Program-made: the position numbers and the translations under genes
The notes under the pieces: model-generated
Told to the model about the DNA's origin: nothing
Database searches by the model: none
The model's input: only the letters and a program-made list of their open reading frames with translations
Assembly (NCBI GenBank): GCA_028687585.1
Contig: JAQTZV010000001.1
Location: 186,001 to 250,000 of the forward strand
Reading direction: 5' to 3'
DNA: 64,000 nucleotides
DNA from: Desulfuromonadaceae bacterium
Lineage (GTDB): Bacteria > Desulfobacterota > Desulfuromonadia > Geobacterales > Pseudopelobacteraceae
Shown: positions 1 through 5,444 of the stretch, piece by piece
Position numbering within the stretch: position 1 is the stretch's first letter
Layout of the letters: each line of letters begins with the position of its first letter

Positions 1-888
1 ATATGCCGCCATTCGTTTATTATCGCTATCGGCGGAGGCGCTGTGCTGGATGCTGCCGGTTATGCCGCCGCCACGTCACACCGTGGGGTGCGCTTGATCC
101 GCCTCCCTACCACGGTCCTCTCCCAGAATGATGCCGGTGTCGGGGTAAAAAACGGGGTAAACGCTTTTGGTCGAAAGAATTTTCTCGGCACTTTTGCTCC
201 GCCGTTTGCGGTTATAAATGACAGTGCCTTTCTGGCCACCTTGACGGAACGTGACCTGCGTGCCGGTATCGCAGAAGCGATCAAAGTAGCACTGATAAGG
301 GATCGGCATTTCTTTGACTCTATGTACGCAGCTCGAGCAGAGTTGGCCCGTTTTGCACCGAGGGTTATGGAATCGATGATCTTTCGCTGTGCGGAGATGC
401 ATCTTGAACATATCGCCACCGGCGGTGATCCATTCGAGTGTGGTTCTTCGCGGCCGCTTGATTTTGGCCACTGGTCCGCTCATAAACTGGAAGAATTGTC
501 GGCTGGTGAACTCAAGCATGGCGAGGCCGTTGCTATCGGTATCGCCCTTGATTCGATGTATTCCTACCAGACTGGGCTGCTGGGTGATCTGGACCTGCGC
601 CGCATCCTCACGCTGCTTGACGATGTTGGTTTCACCCTGTATCATCCCGCTCTTTCCTGGCTTGATGTGACCAGAGCGCTGGCTGATTTTCAGGAGCATC
701 TGGGTGGTGAACTTTCTATTCCCCTGCTGACGGCAATCGGCATGAAAACTGAGGCTCACGTAATTGATGTTGCGCTGATGCAGCGTTGCGTTTCCAAACT
801 GTCGGAGAGGGAAGAGCGAAAAAAAACGATGAACGGTATGAACACGGTTACTGTCGGTACTTGTGAACGTAAGCAAAATATGCCATGA
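1..888 (+). CDS. eboD: EboD-like sugar phosphate cyclase (3-dehydroquinate synthase family), 5' end outside window
   Basis: The reading frame is open from base 1, so the gene starts upstream; 295 residues are visible and the GTG at 43 is internal. The glycine-rich NAD-binding stretch IAIGGGAVLDAAGYAAA lies at the left edge, as in dehydroquinate synthases. Zinc-ligand motifs are kept: AGIAEAIK near base 274, FGHWSAHKLE near 469 and LKHGEAVAIG near 517. The FGHWSAHK variant differs from the FGHTFGH of housekeeping AroB, and the neighbours are eboB, eboE, eboF and eboC, so I call it EboD rather than AroB. The substrate of EboD is not established; a cyclitol product is an inference from family. 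Its stop overlaps the next start (ATGA). Confidence 0.85.
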   Translation: MCRHSFIIAIGGGAVLDAAGYAAATSHRGVRLIRLPTTVLSQNDAGVGVKNGVNAFGRKNFLGTFAPPFAVINDSAFLATLTERDLRAGIAEAIKVALIRDRHFFDSMYAARAELARFAPRVMESMIFRCAEMHLEHIATGGDPFECGSSRPLDFGHWSAHKLEELSAGELKHGEAVAIGIALDSMYSYQTGLLGDLDLRRILTLLDDVGFTLYHPALSWLDVTRALADFQEHLGGELSIPLLTAIGMKTEAHVIDVALMQRCVSKLSEREERKKTMNGMNTVTVGTCERKQNMP

Positions 889-1160
889 AAACAGGTACAG
901 TGTTGTTGGCATTGTTGCTATGTGCGGTGACTGTCTGCGCCTCTGACATCGTAAGATTTGAGAGCGGCATGATGTTTGATCACCAGGAGCACAAGCGTGA
1001 AGTGGGGATGTGTTCGTATTGTCACGAAAGCACTCCCGGAAAAATTTCCGGTTTTGGCAAAGAGTGGGCGCACAAAACCTGCATCGGCTGCCATAAAGAT
1101 TTCAGGGAAGGTCCTGTGATGTGCGCCGGTTGTCACAAACAGACAAACAGGAAAGACTGA
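885..1160 (+). CDS. Periplasmic triheme c7-type cytochrome inside the ebo operon
   Basis: This 91-residue protein starts with a signal peptide (charged Lys2, hydrophobic 5-17, likely cleavage after Ala19). It has three CxxCH heme sites at residues 43-47 (CSYCH), 66-70 (CIGCH) and 80-84 (CAGCH). His33, His36 and His63 supply exactly three further histidines, as expected for bis-histidine ligation in the cytochrome c7 family of periplasmic electron carriers (PpcA-like). Mature size, about 72 residues, also fits. The ATG overlaps the eboD stop by four bases, so it is translated with the cluster. A redox role for the ebo product, or simply a cytochrome swept into the operon, are both possible. 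Confidence 0.93.
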   Translation: MKTGTVLLALLLCAVTVCASDIVRFESGMMFDHQEHKREVGMCSYCHESTPGKISGFGKEWAHKTCIGCHKDFREGPVMCAGCHKQTNRKD

Positions 1161-1179
1161 TTCTCACAGGAGAACTGAC

Positions 1180-1482
1180 ATGTCACCACCATACCAAACC
1201 ATGGATGCCATGGAAATTCTGGAGCTGTACTTCGTTGAAAACCGCGCCCGGCTTCTTGATATCGCCTCGTTCCTCGACCGGATTGACCGCTATGAAGGGG
1301 CCGAAACCGCCCGCGCAGATTTCCGCTATACTGCGTTTCAGAACGCCGTCGATCTGCTCAAAAGCGGTGCGGCGGGCCGTACGGCGGCCATCCAGACCAT
1401 CTTCAGTGATCCGACGACAGAACCTCTGGAATCGGCAGTCGGGCTGAAGGCTTTCGGTGCCTGGAAAGGGGAAACGCGATGA
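1180..1482 (+). CDS. Unrecognised 100-residue protein of the ebo cluster
   Basis: The ATG at 1180 has a good ribosome binding site (AGGAG about 7 bases upstream) and the stop overlaps the eboB start (ATGA), so this is a real gene of the operon. The product is small, soluble and mostly helical-looking, with MEILELYFVENRARLLDIA near the N-terminus and a FSDPTTEPLES segment near residue 75-85. No signal peptide, metal motif or membrane segment is seen. I do not recognise the family. It is much shorter than EboA proteins, which run to about 200 residues or more, and I see no convincing EboA similarity; a divergent or shortened EboA remains possible. Confidence 0.8.
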   Translation: MSPPYQTMDAMEILELYFVENRARLLDIASFLDRIDRYEGAETARADFRYTAFQNAVDLLKSGAAGRTAAIQTIFSDPTTEPLESAVGLKAFGAWKGETR

Positions 1483-2282
1483 AGGCGATTGATCCCCACA
1501 TCCATATGGTGTCCCGTACGACTGATGATTATCTGCAGCTTGCCATCGCAGGTATTCACACCGTCGCTGAACCTGCCTTCTGGGCCGGCTTTGACCGCAC
1601 TTCTGCCGACAGTTTCCGTGATTATTTTCAAACTCTGACGGTAACTGAACCGGCTCGGGCCGCCAGATTCGGCATCAAACATTTCTGCTGGATCGGCATG
1701 AATGCCAAGGAAGCGGAAAATCTTGCCATGACCGAAGATGTGCTTGCGCTCATGCCCGAGTTTCTTGACGCACCGACTGCTCTTGGTATTGGCGAAATAG
1801 GGCTGAACAAGAACAGCCGCAACGAAATTAAAACATTGGAGCTGCAGTTGGATCTTGCCGTTCGTCGTAATGAAATGATCCTGATTCATACTCCGCACCT
1901 GGAGGACAAGCTGAAGGGGACACGCATCATCATGGAGATGATCCTCTCTGAACCTCGCATCGATCCTGCCCGGGTGCTGATCGACCACGCCGAGGAGCAT
2001 ACCATCAAGGAGATCAAGGACAACGGTTTCTGGTTTGGTCTGACCCTGTATCCGCACTCGAAAGGGAGCCCGGAGCGTGCCATAGATGTTGTTGAACTCT
2101 ACGGTACCGAGCGGCTGTGCATCAACTCCTCTGCCGATTGGAGCGTCAGTGATCCCTTGTCGATACTCAAGTGTGCCAATGAAATGAGGCGGCGGGGTCA
2201 TTCGGAAGCGGCTGTTGCCAAAGTATTTTACGACAATCCAAAGTCGTTTCTCAGCCAATGTCCAAAATTTCAGGCCGGATGA
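1479..2282 (+). CDS. eboB: TatD-family metal-dependent hydrolase EboB
   Basis: The 267-residue protein has the amidohydrolase-fold ligands in order: DPHIH at residues 5-9, GEIGLNK at 105-111 (Glu106), HTPH at 137-140, DHAEE at 169-173 and SSADW at 218-221 (Asp220). These match the TatD/EboB group. The reaction catalysed within ebo clusters is unknown; cytosolic location is expected as there is no signal peptide. The ATG overlaps the upstream stop and its own stop overlaps the eboE start, giving translational coupling along the operon. Length is normal for the family. Confidence 0.9.
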   Translation: MKAIDPHIHMVSRTTDDYLQLAIAGIHTVAEPAFWAGFDRTSADSFRDYFQTLTVTEPARAARFGIKHFCWIGMNAKEAENLAMTEDVLALMPEFLDAPTALGIGEIGLNKNSRNEIKTLELQLDLAVRRNEMILIHTPHLEDKLKGTRIIMEMILSEPRIDPARVLIDHAEEHTIKEIKDNGFWFGLTLYPHSKGSPERAIDVVELYGTERLCINSSADWSVSDPLSILKCANEMRRRGHSEAAVAKVFYDNPKSFLSQCPKFQAG

Positions 2283-3382
2283 TCACCTACTGCACCAATA
2301 TCCACCCTGGTGAGAGCTGGGGAGATACGTTCAAAAACCTGCAAACATACATTCCGCCCGTTGCTGCTGCGGTTTCCCCCGCAGCGCCGTTCCCCATCGG
2401 CCTGCGTCTTTCCGGCCGAGCGTCTCTGGAGATCGATGAAAGCGCGTCTGCCGAATTTTCAGAATGGCTTCAGCGTACCAACACCTTTGTACCGACACTT
2501 AATGGTTTCCCCCACGGTTCATTTCACCGGTCGGCAGTAAAAGAAAATGTCTATCTCCCTGACTGGCGTGACGGTGAGCGGGTTGCGTACACCGTGCGGC
2601 TGGCAAACTTGCTTGACTCTTGGCTTCCGGAGGGCGTTCACGGCTCTATTTCGACGGTGCCGGTCGGCATTAAACCCGGCTTCAGAGATGAGAGCGCTGC
2701 TGTTCGTACCAATCTGATGCTCGTGCTGGAACAGCTTGACCGGCTCCGCCAGAAAAGCGGAAAAACGATTCTGCTGGCCCTTGAGCCTGAGCCGGGATGC
2801 CTCCTGGAAACGACGTACGAGGTTGTGGAATTTTTTGACCGTATGTCTTTTCCTGATGAATTGCGCCGGGGAATCGGCATCTGTTTTGATTGCTGCCACC
2901 AGGCGGTCGAATTTGAGACGCCGTCCAATTCCCTGAGACTGTTGGCTGATGCGGAGATTGCCGTCGCCAAACTGCAGGTATCGTCGGCTCTTCGGGTCAA
3001 AAATCCTAATCGGGCGCTCATGGAAAAATTTTGTGAGCCCTGTTATCTGCATCAGGTTGTTATCCGCGATGCGGCGGGTGTGCTCAGTCGCTACAATGAT
3101 CTTCCCGACGCTCTGCGGGAACACCGTGCCGGAAACGGCGATGAATGGCGTATCCATTTCCATGTGCCGATCTTTATTGATCGTTTGGAGCCGTTCGAAT
3201 CAACCGGATATTTCATTAAAGAAACGCTGCCGCATATAGACGCGAATGTTCTTCTTGAAGTGGAGACCTATACCTGGGAAGTACTGCCGCCTGAACTCCG
3301 CATGGCAAGCGTGACGCAGTCGATAATCCGTGAAATTCAATGGCTGAAGGCGGAACGAAATGAAACGAACCGTTGTTCTTAA
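2279..3382 (+). CDS. eboE: EboE-like TIM-barrel protein (sugar phosphate isomerase/epimerase fold)
   Basis: I chose the ATG at 2279 because it makes the ATGA overlap with eboB seen elsewhere in this operon and the protein then begins MITYCTNIHPGESWG, the usual start of EboE; an ATG at 2258 would add seven residues. The 367-residue product carries the acidic strand-end motifs of xylose-isomerase-like barrels, ALEPEPG and GICFDCCHQAVEFE, that normally bind a metal ion. EboE is a component of ebo clusters of unknown reaction. It overlaps eboF by 23 bases. Confidence 0.85.
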   Translation: MITYCTNIHPGESWGDTFKNLQTYIPPVAAAVSPAAPFPIGLRLSGRASLEIDESASAEFSEWLQRTNTFVPTLNGFPHGSFHRSAVKENVYLPDWRDGERVAYTVRLANLLDSWLPEGVHGSISTVPVGIKPGFRDESAAVRTNLMLVLEQLDRLRQKSGKTILLALEPEPGCLLETTYEVVEFFDRMSFPDELRRGIGICFDCCHQAVEFETPSNSLRLLADAEIAVAKLQVSSALRVKNPNRALMEKFCEPCYLHQVVIRDAAGVLSRYNDLPDALREHRAGNGDEWRIHFHVPIFIDRLEPFESTGYFIKETLPHIDANVLLEVETYTWEVLPPELRMASVTQSIIREIQWLKAERNETNRCS

Positions 3383-4727
3383 CGTTGTCGGACTTACCCG
3401 CTCGCTGATCAGTGCCAGAACTCCGCATCTGCAGGCGCTCCTTGCCGGGAGTGCCGATATTGCGGCGCTCACACCGGCGGTTACCTGCTCCATGCAGAGC
3501 ACCTATCTGACCGGAAAACTCCCTGCAGAGCATGGCATCGTCGGCAATGGCTGGTATTCCCGGGATCTTGGTGAGGTGCTGTTCTGGCGGCAGTCCAACC
3601 AACTTGTGCAATCTGAAAAGATCTGGCAGGCAGCCAGGAGGCGCAATCCGGACTTCACGTGTGCCAACAGTTTCTGGTGGTTCAATATGAACACCGATGT
3701 TGATTGGGCGGTAACGCCACGTCCGCTCTACTGTGCCGACGGCAGAAAACTACCCGACTGCTACAGTATTCCGCCCCAGCTCAGGGATGACTTTAACCGT
3801 GAGTTCGGCCAGTTTCCGCTGTTTCAATTCTGGGGGCCCGCGACATCAATCGCTTCCAGTCAATGGATCGGTAAATCGGCAATGGCGCTGGAGGAACGCT
3901 ACCAGCCGACGCTGCAACTGGTTTATCTGCCGCACCTCGATTACATACTGCAGAAAGTCGGCCCGGATGGTGACATTGGCGCCGACCTCACCCAGATCGA
4001 CGATCTCTGCGGCACGCTGCTGGCGTACTTTCGTGAGCGGGGCTGCCGGGTTATCGTGCTCTCGGAATACGGTATAACCCCGGTAACAGAACCGCTTCAT
4101 CCGAACAGAATACTGCGCGATGCCGGCTATCTTTCCCTCAAAATCGATCTGGGGCGGGAGTATCTTGATCCGGGTGCGAGCCGCGCTTTTGCCGTGTCAG
4201 ACCACCAGATAGCCCATGTCTATGTACGGCAGCAGCGTGATCTTGCGGCTGTCGAAGCGCTTTTTGCCGCAGTTCCGGGTATTGAACAGGTGCTGGATGA
4301 CGAGGGAAAGCGGGCGTACGGACTCAATCATGAACGATCCGGAGATCTGGTGCTTGTAGCCGGAAAAGAGAGCTGGTTTACCTATTATTACTGGAATGAC
4401 GATCAGCGGGCGCCCGATTATGCCAGAACCGTAAACATCCATGCAAAGCCGGGCTACGACCCGTGTGAGCTCTTTCTTGACCCGCAGATCAGTTTACCAA
4501 AGGTGAAGATCGGCTGGACCCTGGCCAAAAAACTCCTCGGCTTCAGATATATGATGGATGTGATCCCGCTGGATGCCTCTCTGGTCAAGGGCTCACATGG
4601 CAGAATTACTGATGCTGCTGCATCCGGTCCGCTTTTTATGACGTCAGAACCAAAGCTTCTGCAAGGTAACGGCTTAGCGGCAGACCAGGTGTTTGACACA
4701 ATCCTCGCCCATGTTTTTTCCGACTGA
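3360..4727 (+). CDS. eboF: Alkaline phosphatase / nucleotide pyrophosphatase family protein EboF
   Basis: The 455-residue product starts MKRTVVLNVVGLT and has LTPAVTCSMQSTYLTG around residues 38-52, where Thr42 sits at the place of the metal-activated nucleophile, followed by HGIVGNGWYSR. Further family blocks are YLPHLDY near 190-195, VLSEYGI near 235, SDHQIAHVYV near 280 and SHGRI near the C-terminus. These fit the type I phosphodiesterase/nucleotide pyrophosphatase fold. No signal peptide is seen, so it is likely cytosolic. The start lies inside eboE (23-base overlap). Substrate is unknown. Confidence 0.85.
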   Translation: MKRTVVLNVVGLTRSLISARTPHLQALLAGSADIAALTPAVTCSMQSTYLTGKLPAEHGIVGNGWYSRDLGEVLFWRQSNQLVQSEKIWQAARRRNPDFTCANSFWWFNMNTDVDWAVTPRPLYCADGRKLPDCYSIPPQLRDDFNREFGQFPLFQFWGPATSIASSQWIGKSAMALEERYQPTLQLVYLPHLDYILQKVGPDGDIGADLTQIDDLCGTLLAYFRERGCRVIVLSEYGITPVTEPLHPNRILRDAGYLSLKIDLGREYLDPGASRAFAVSDHQIAHVYVRQQRDLAAVEALFAAVPGIEQVLDDEGKRAYGLNHERSGDLVLVAGKESWFTYYYWNDDQRAPDYARTVNIHAKPGYDPCELFLDPQISLPKVKIGWTLAKKLLGFRYMMDVIPLDASLVKGSHGRITDAAASGPLFMTSEPKLLQGNGLAADQVFDTILAHVFSD

Positions 4728-4736
4728 CGATCTCTC

Positions 4737-5444
4737 ATGACTACCCTGAAAACGTATATAGAACTCTGCAGAATCAGTAACCTGCCAACGGTCTGGAGCA
4801 ATGTCCTTGCCGCAGTCATCTTGTCCGGAGAACCGTTTTCGTGGGGAGCTTTTTCCACCCTGGCGCTCTCACTGTCACTGTTTTATTCTGCAGGGATGGC
4901 GCTTAACGATATCTTCGATGCCGCTATTGACCGGATACAGAGGCCTGGCCGACCCATCCCTTCCGGAAGGATTACTCCGCTTGCAGCATACCTGCTTACC
5001 GGTGGCCTGTTCGTCGCCGCGTTTGCTCTCCTTTTTGCGTTCTCCCATAGATCAGCTGTTTTTGCCGGGTTCGTTCTGCTTGTACTGATCATCCTCTATG
5101 ACCGGTATCACAAGGGTCATCCCTCCAGTGTGCTGTTGATGGCCGCTTGCAGAGCCATGGTCTATGTCGTATCCGGTTACGCCCTGGCCGGGAAGATCAG
5201 CGGAGCAGTGCTGACCGTCGCCTTGATCCAGTTTGGCTATATCGTCTGCATCAGTGTAACGGCACGGTACGAGAACCACCGCTCCACCCCATTCACCTTC
5301 CCGGTCATTCCGCTGATGCTGGCAGGCATCTGCCTTGTCGACGGCATCTTCCTGGCGGCGGTAACGTCCCCGTTCTGGCTTGCAGCCGGGGTATGCGGCA
5401 TGCTGCTTACTCTGATGGGACAGCGTTTTGTGCGCGGCGATTAA
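4737..5444 (+). CDS. eboC: UbiA-family prenyltransferase EboC
   Basis: This 235-residue integral membrane protein contains the first UbiA prenyl-diphosphate/Mg2+ motif, NDIFDAAIDRIQRPGRP at residues 57-73, and a second, shorter Asp motif, LYDRYHKGHP, near 120. About seven to eight hydrophobic segments follow. UbiA enzymes transfer an isoprenoid chain to an acceptor; in an ebo cluster the acceptor is presumably the EboD-derived molecule, an inference. It is the last gene of the operon, nine bases after eboF, and a palindromic repeat begins right at its stop codon. Slightly short for the family, but motifs are complete. Confidence 0.9.
   Translation: MTTLKTYIELCRISNLPTVWSNVLAAVILSGEPFSWGAFSTLALSLSLFYSAGMALNDIFDAAIDRIQRPGRPIPSGRITPLAAYLLTGGLFVAAFALLFAFSHRSAVFAGFVLLVLIILYDRYHKGHPSSVLLMAACRAMVYVVSGYALAGKISGAVLTVALIQFGYIVCISVTARYENHRSTPFTFPVIPLMLAGICLVDGIFLAAVTSPFWLAAGVCGMLLTLMGQRFVRGD

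Follow-up and report, generated by a model that had tools for sequence, protein, structure and literature searches.

An eboG-type operon at the start of the window

We analyzed a stretch of 64,000 nucleotides (the window) from a Desulfuromonadaceae bacterium (assembly GCA_028687585.1), covering positions 186,001 to 250,000 of the forward strand of contig JAQTZV010000001.1 (G000:C26:186001-250000; G, C and L label genomes, contigs and loci). The genome is 5.47 Mb in size and its named relatives are Geobacteraceae. Seven + strand genes, overlapping or separated by short gaps, extend from the window start to position 5444 and form an ebo cluster of the eboG and EboD type. Their order is D-(cytochrome)-X-B-E-F-C, where X is EboG according to a sequence profile.

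The first gene encodes the 3' part of EboD, a sugar-phosphate-cyclase-family protein (1..888, + strand, starting 320 bases before the window), which comprises 402 aa when completed from the upstream sequence (L003 9680-10888). It is followed by a triheme c7-type cytochrome with a signal-like start and, by eye, three CxxCH motifs (885..1160), and by EboG, a helical protein of 100 aa (1180..1482). Family calls with NCBIfam and Pfam models assigned EboB to the TatD-like metallohydrolases (1479..2282; TatD Pfam, 33 bits), EboE to the xylose-isomerase-like TIM barrels (2258..3382), EboF to the type I phosphodiesterases/pyrophosphatases (3360..4727; PF01663, 200 bits) and EboC to the UbiA-type prenyltransferases, as a short member of 235 aa (4737..5444).

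A preliminary description of this DNA had claimed an ebo cluster with a changed gene order. The order was read as described and differs from ABCDEF, and EboE confirmed the cluster with 429.5 bits against a cut-off of 250 (NF035939). That description had also considered that AroB, TatD and UbiA families might outscore the Ebo families. This is not the case for EboE, whereas the ebo model for EboC is the best but a weak one (NF035940, 110.6 bits, below the cut-off of 250); position and the EboC tree agree with orthology. EboD is not the AroB of this genome. Its best NCBIfam model is NF004852 (PRK06203, named 3-dehydroquinate synthase; 570 bits, cut-off 333), it scores 208 bits to the aroB model TIGR01357, under the cut-off of 305, and a separate true aroB is present (C29:314637, 384 bits), and we therefore rejected a role of EboD as the shikimate enzyme. 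The nearest solved structure is 4p53, a 'Cyclase' (151 bits), followed by the dehydroquinate synthase 3okf (128.5 bits). An alignment of 13 EboC sequences revealed that N57, D58, D61 and D65 are invariant. The EboC of the window lacks about 55 internal residues, a gap common to the first six alignment rows, all proteobacterial or desulfobacterial; the missing stretch perhaps comprises two membrane helices that other EboC proteins have.

The small gene X was compared with plasmid genes that had no part in building the EboG profile, which was made from relatives. On each of two Deinococcus plasmids, the profile matched the small gene flanked by eboD and eboB (E 6e-22 and 1.5e-19), and it also matched a gene on a Gemmatirosa plasmid (E 7.9e-27). 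X is thus EboG by profile, and its equation with the published eboG rests on position and organism. In Deinococcales, Herpetosiphon, Thermithiobacillus and others, eboG takes the place of eboA (PMC5133447). The AlphaFold2 model of EboG (pLDDT 77.6) had no match in the PDB at E 0.001 or better, and hhalign detected no relation between EboG and EboA (probability 0.1). Given the profile matches and this hhalign result, a new family and a diverged EboA were both rejected.

The preliminary description had seen no eboA, and the wider search agrees: across the whole genome, the EboA profile gave a single weak, partial match of 25 bits in a histidine kinase, and no match was found in nine other genomes. 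As a control, the same alignment detected two Streptomyces EboA proteins outside it (98 and 105 bits). By these profile scores, the genome very probably lacks eboA. EboA and EboG were together at no locus among 62 with an EboA match and 30 (19 distinct) with EboG. Because X matches EboG, a published alternative to eboA, the missing eboA is a known variant. The idea that its loss marks a variant pathway did not hold up, as the form with eboG in its place had already been published (PMC5133447).

The cytochrome is an insertion between eboD and eboG that is private to this genome. It scores 95 bits to NF043011, under the cut-off of 120, and it was found at 1 of the 19 distinct EboG loci (30 with duplicates), that of the window itself. 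The eboD-eboG spacing is 291 bases here versus 1 base in the closest relative (G046, same genus); the eboG start regions of the two are alike and the EboD tails differ. A paralogue on contig C51 shares 45% identity over 69 residues. The preliminary description had treated the cytochrome as part of a changed gene order in metal reducers, and it could be a working part of a variant pathway there, for example by oxidizing an exported product. With a 4-base overlap of the eboD stop and an unchanged eboG start region behind it, the gene is probably co-transcribed. However, it is missing from the 18 other distinct eboG loci, including that of G046. We consider such a role highly improbable, and the cytochrome was rejected as a part of ebo.

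Spread of the clusters and MIPS in the EboD slot

EboE passed its cut-off in 4 of the 76 genomes of the family and in 8 of the 395 genomes sampled from the phylum, so ebo does not characterize the lineage in general. Most eboG loci of Desulfobacterota read D-G-B-E-F-C. No eboD was seen in the Accumulibacter locus (L047), and neither eboF nor eboC in the stretch examined from a Nitrospirota member (L051). Other deltaproteobacterial arrangements include B, inverted D, E, F, C (L049), D and E near one another (L052 and L053), and D-E-F-C with EboB apart and EboA present (L054 and L055). EboD-EboE pairs without other ebo genes nearby were observed in four Desulfobacterota genomes (L009-L012, L126). 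In Geobacter sp. OR-1 (L046), E-F-C adjoin a gene for a 3208-aa protein with a signal-like start, and no D, G or B was seen in 21 kb.

Four further genomes that encode the squalene-cyclase-like (SHC) protein described below have an ebo-like cluster that includes genes for two short TIM barrels. In three of them, all Desulfobacterota (G205, G218 and, on two contigs, G371), a protein of about 400 aa with the domains of myo-inositol-phosphate synthase (MIPS) occupies the EboD slot; in the fourth (G457), the contig ends where the EboD/MIPS slot would lie. The MIPS of G205 (L144) matches PF07994 (188 bits) and PF01658 (118 bits), and the nearest solved structure to that of G218 (L145) is 1u1i (E 3e-92), an Archaeoglobus-type Ino1. 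The ebo-type MIPS was detected with at least 447 bits in 14 of the 395 phylum genomes (next best match, 186 bits), in all 14 beside a TIM barrel. None of these genomes is among the eight with EboE, a disjointness that chance alone could give. Ring enzyme and TIM barrel also occur without EboC, in four EboD-EboE genomes and 11 MIPS-TIM genomes. Against the model of the inosose dehydratase IolE, the short TIM barrels of the MIPS clusters stay under the cut-off (48 to 58 bits); other sugar epimerases give higher scores.

The same replacement was found on plasmids. Two Streptomyces plasmid clusters read MIPS - SCO3242 prenyltransferase - TIM - EboA - TatD - EboE - EboF, with no EboD; a cluster on a plasmid of the haloarchaeon Natronococcus reads TatD - TIM - UbiA - TIM - MIPS - phosphodiesterase; and the Gemmatirosa plasmid cluster has MIPS together with EboG. 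By these sequence assignments, sister clusters in Desulfobacterota, Actinomycetota, Gemmatimonadota and one haloarchaeon carry MIPS instead of EboD. Among 48 plasmid records with EboE, 15 had EboD within 10 kb, 29 had MIPS, none had both and four had neither; this count used close matches among 60 of 124 records for MIPS and 60 of 115 for EboD, and 25 of the 29 MIPS records are Streptomyces, many of them near-identical. The four records with neither comprise one lone EboE in a polyketide cluster, two with B-E-F only by profile and one fragment at a record end. The lone EboE (L162 8965-10143) belongs to a Streptomyces plasmid, and the polyketide cluster around it is of type II. Five close MIPS matches were on haloarchaeal plasmids without an EboE match; of the two inspected, Natronococcus is ebo-like and Halomarina is not. 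In a scan of named genomes with the EboE of the window as query, which leans to EboD-type clusters, the best 80 of 450 relatives included 72 with EboD, none with MIPS and eight with neither, several of these on short contigs.

Phylogenetic trees suggest that EboD and MIPS may have been exchanged more than once. In the EboB tree, which favors this, the EboB of the window is placed among the eboG rows, the Streptomyces sequences are among the eboA rows and Gemmatirosa groups with Deinococcus (100/99); Gemmatirosa is among EboD rows in both the EboB and EboF trees. The EboC tree is at odds with it, as Gemmatirosa groups there with the Streptomyces MIPS rows (99/93). The branches are long and the roots arbitrary.

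Recurrent genes beside the clusters

Directly before eboD, a YdjY protein and a 390-aa SHC-like protein are encoded at the locus of the window (L003) and at L040, L038, L045, L041, L043 and L123. Both proteins have signal-like starts by eye. YdjY and SHC follow eboC at L124, SHC lies at the contig end at L042, and a longer SHC-like gene is on the opposite strand at L044. The pair was not seen before eboD at L047, L048 (where the contig starts in eboD), L051, L088, L104 or the plasmid loci. Of the 76 genomes of the family, the four with ebo, and no others, have an SHC score of at least 638 bits; one other match was weak (35.5 bits). YdjY as a family is commoner (14 of 76). A structure search with the SHC protein returned only a general alpha/alpha toroid match.

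In 13 of the 395 phylum genomes SHC gave a match, which exceeded 360 bits in nine, was close to 206 bits in two and stayed below 22 bits in the other two. EboC was sought in 26 chosen genomes and counted when it exceeded 75 bits and lay in the cluster, which excluded generic UbiA matches of up to 45 bits; G457 had been found via its SHC match and was left out of these contrasts. Strong SHC was present in 4/4 EboE-passing genomes with EboC versus 0/4 without it (n=8), and SHC in 3/3 ebo-type MIPS genomes with EboC versus 0/11 without it (n=14). The remaining strong SHC matches are those of G457 (split contigs) and G217 (whose 3.2-kb contig has only YdjY and SHC). YdjY and SHC are far more constant partners of ebo than the cytochrome.

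Genes for PEP-CTERM proteins, of which the genome of the window has 16, are enriched near the clusters. Seven of the nine full-ebo genomes have one within 5 kb of the cluster, versus 0.35 expected (P about 2e-9, calculated with rounded genome sizes, without correction for kinship and with the related genomes G000 and G046, and G218 and G371, entered separately). The two exceptions are G029, whose genome yielded no such gene at E 0.01, and G205, which lacks one near the cluster. None was found within 10 kb in the seven genomes searched of the 15 that have a ring-enzyme pair without EboC; three of these seven have none at all. In cyanobacteria, ScyD, ScyE and ScyF are PEP-CTERM proteins, and an exosortase is needed for scytonemin (PMC12188702).

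MoxR-Bat-type genes, recognized by the Pfam families AAA_3, BatA and VWA, lie upstream of ebo at the locus of the window (L120/L003), at L121/L038 (about 11 kb away), at L122/L039 and at L043, where the contig stretch begins with the Bat part only. They are directly downstream of ebo in Accumulibacter (L047). Large secreted PKD-toroid proteins also recur near the clusters, as does an O-methyltransferase near a few. The stretch before the operon (G000:C26:171474-185646; L120, L003) encodes MoxR, BatA, VWA and two Bat-like proteins, all on the same strand towards eboD. The two Bat-like proteins are presumably BatC- and BatD-like; Pfam assigned them no family. The strand is shared by genes for PEP-CTERM, PKD-toroid and type II secretion C-like proteins, an O-methyltransferase, YdjY and SHC.

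The operon of the window resembles the published eboG type in having eboG and not eboA, and the two Deinococcus plasmids in its D-G-B-E order. It differs from the published type (PMC5133447, as far as described there) in having EboF before EboC, a short EboC, the cytochrome and the upstream YdjY and SHC. The EboB, EboC, EboE and EboF families are common to Nostoc, as is a nearby PEP-CTERM gene (ScyD, E and F at the Nostoc scy locus; PMC6282210, PMC12188702). Nostoc, in contrast, has eboA and another order, and no scytonemin genes were noticed near the cluster of the window, where no search was aimed at them. The MIPS-type clusters share EboB-, EboC-, EboF- and EboE-like genes with it (no EboF was seen in G205), and the Desulfobacterota ones also YdjY and SHC; they differ in having MIPS, an extra TIM barrel and, in Streptomyces, eboA. 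In the open-access literature we found neither a MIPS form of ebo (papers with two or more Ebo protein names lacked 'inositol') nor a link between ebo and YdjY or SHC, nor PEP-CTERM enrichment outside cyanobacteria; the one paper found with both PEP-CTERM and 'ebo cluster' (PMC12188702) is on Nostoc.

Candidate products of the ebo cluster

The ebo cluster was named in 2016, when a cyclitol was proposed as its product (PMC5133447). Two predicted ring-forming enzymes, unrelated to each other, in one slot and each beside a TIM barrel, support the cyclitol proposal and hint at a sugar-derived ring as the basis of the product. MIPS is a familiar enzyme whose reaction is well established, and MIPS-type clusters would therefore have a defined starting compound, inositol phosphate, which makes the proposal testable.

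At about even probability, we propose that the cluster makes a prenylated cyclitol, in which a sugar-derived carbon ring bears an isoprenoid tail. This lipid would reside in the inner membrane and be put to use, or transport cargo, at the periplasmic face; all the reactions are predicted. EboD would cyclize a sugar phosphate, for which sedoheptulose 7-phosphate has been proposed (PMC5133447). EboE may then act directly on the ring ketone, like inosose isomerases and dehydratases; we place it beside the ring enzyme because EboD-EboE and MIPS-TIM pairs occur without other ebo genes. EboB and EboF would strip groups and EboC would attach an isoprenoid; quinolines are farnesylated in vitro by the EboC of a flavobacterium (PMC9235831). 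In the periplasm, judging from co-occurrence, the product may be bound or altered by the secreted YdjY and squalene-cyclase-fold proteins. We infer the periplasmic end from the Nostoc mutants (PMC6282210) and the secreted partners found here; Nostoc is the only organism in which ebo has been shown to move a metabolite to the periplasm (PMC6282210). The links to SHC and PEP-CTERM proteins point to the cell envelope as the place where the ebo product acts. A more specific and speculative version, which we think improbable, is that assembly in the periplasm and at the surface relies on this lipid as acceptor or carrier; the ring of the lipid would come from either cyclitol synthase in bacteria and archaea. 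YdjY and the squalene-cyclase-fold proteins would load or trim the lipid and the PEP-CTERM and MoxR-Bat proteins would use it, perhaps as an attachment partner of exosortase.

Several observations weigh against a prenylated cyclitol handled in the periplasm. The substrate of EboD could be a different sugar phosphate, and the NCBIfam model that fits EboD best is named for dehydroquinate synthase. The EboC of the window is short and scores under the cut-off of its model, and the Nostoc study reports that no lipid-conjugated monomer was found (PMC6282210). The partners are not universal: in Deinococcus, Streptomyces, Gemmatirosa and Natronococcus, neither SHC nor YdjY was seen within the 17 kb examined around the cluster. 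Conversely, one 3.2-kb contig (L156) holds YdjY and SHC only, and a more distant YdjY-SHC-like pair (L150 9277-11243) has no ebo genes in 20 kb.

Part of the evidence could also be read without any distinct lipid: the Ebo proteins would form a membrane complex that transfers an aromatic metabolite into the periplasm, with the ring enzyme supplying only a small cofactor. The flavobacterial EboC prefers quinoline carboxylic acids (PMC9235831), and the cluster of Streptomyces camelliae adjoins a gene for a ScyD/ScyE-family protein, both of which fit this alternative. Yet on gene maps inspected by eye, the Geobacter-like clusters have no recurrent aromatic pathway next to them, save for the O-methyltransferase in some, and two unrelated cyclitol synthases in one slot point to the ring as a core part; we regard the alternative as a serious but minority possibility. 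A secondary metabolite of the ordinary kind, derived from a cyclitol, prenylated and secreted but without a role as carrier, as proposed in PMC5133447, would suit the patchy spread (4 of 76 family genomes), which is common in secondary metabolism, and the proximity of EboD to a solved cyclase outside the dehydroquinate synthases. The association with a secreted SHC and with PEP-CTERM proteins suggests an envelope role instead, and we hold this option to be unlikely.

The distant YdjY-SHC-like pair at L150 adjoins a gene that, by eye, resembles a TonB receptor.

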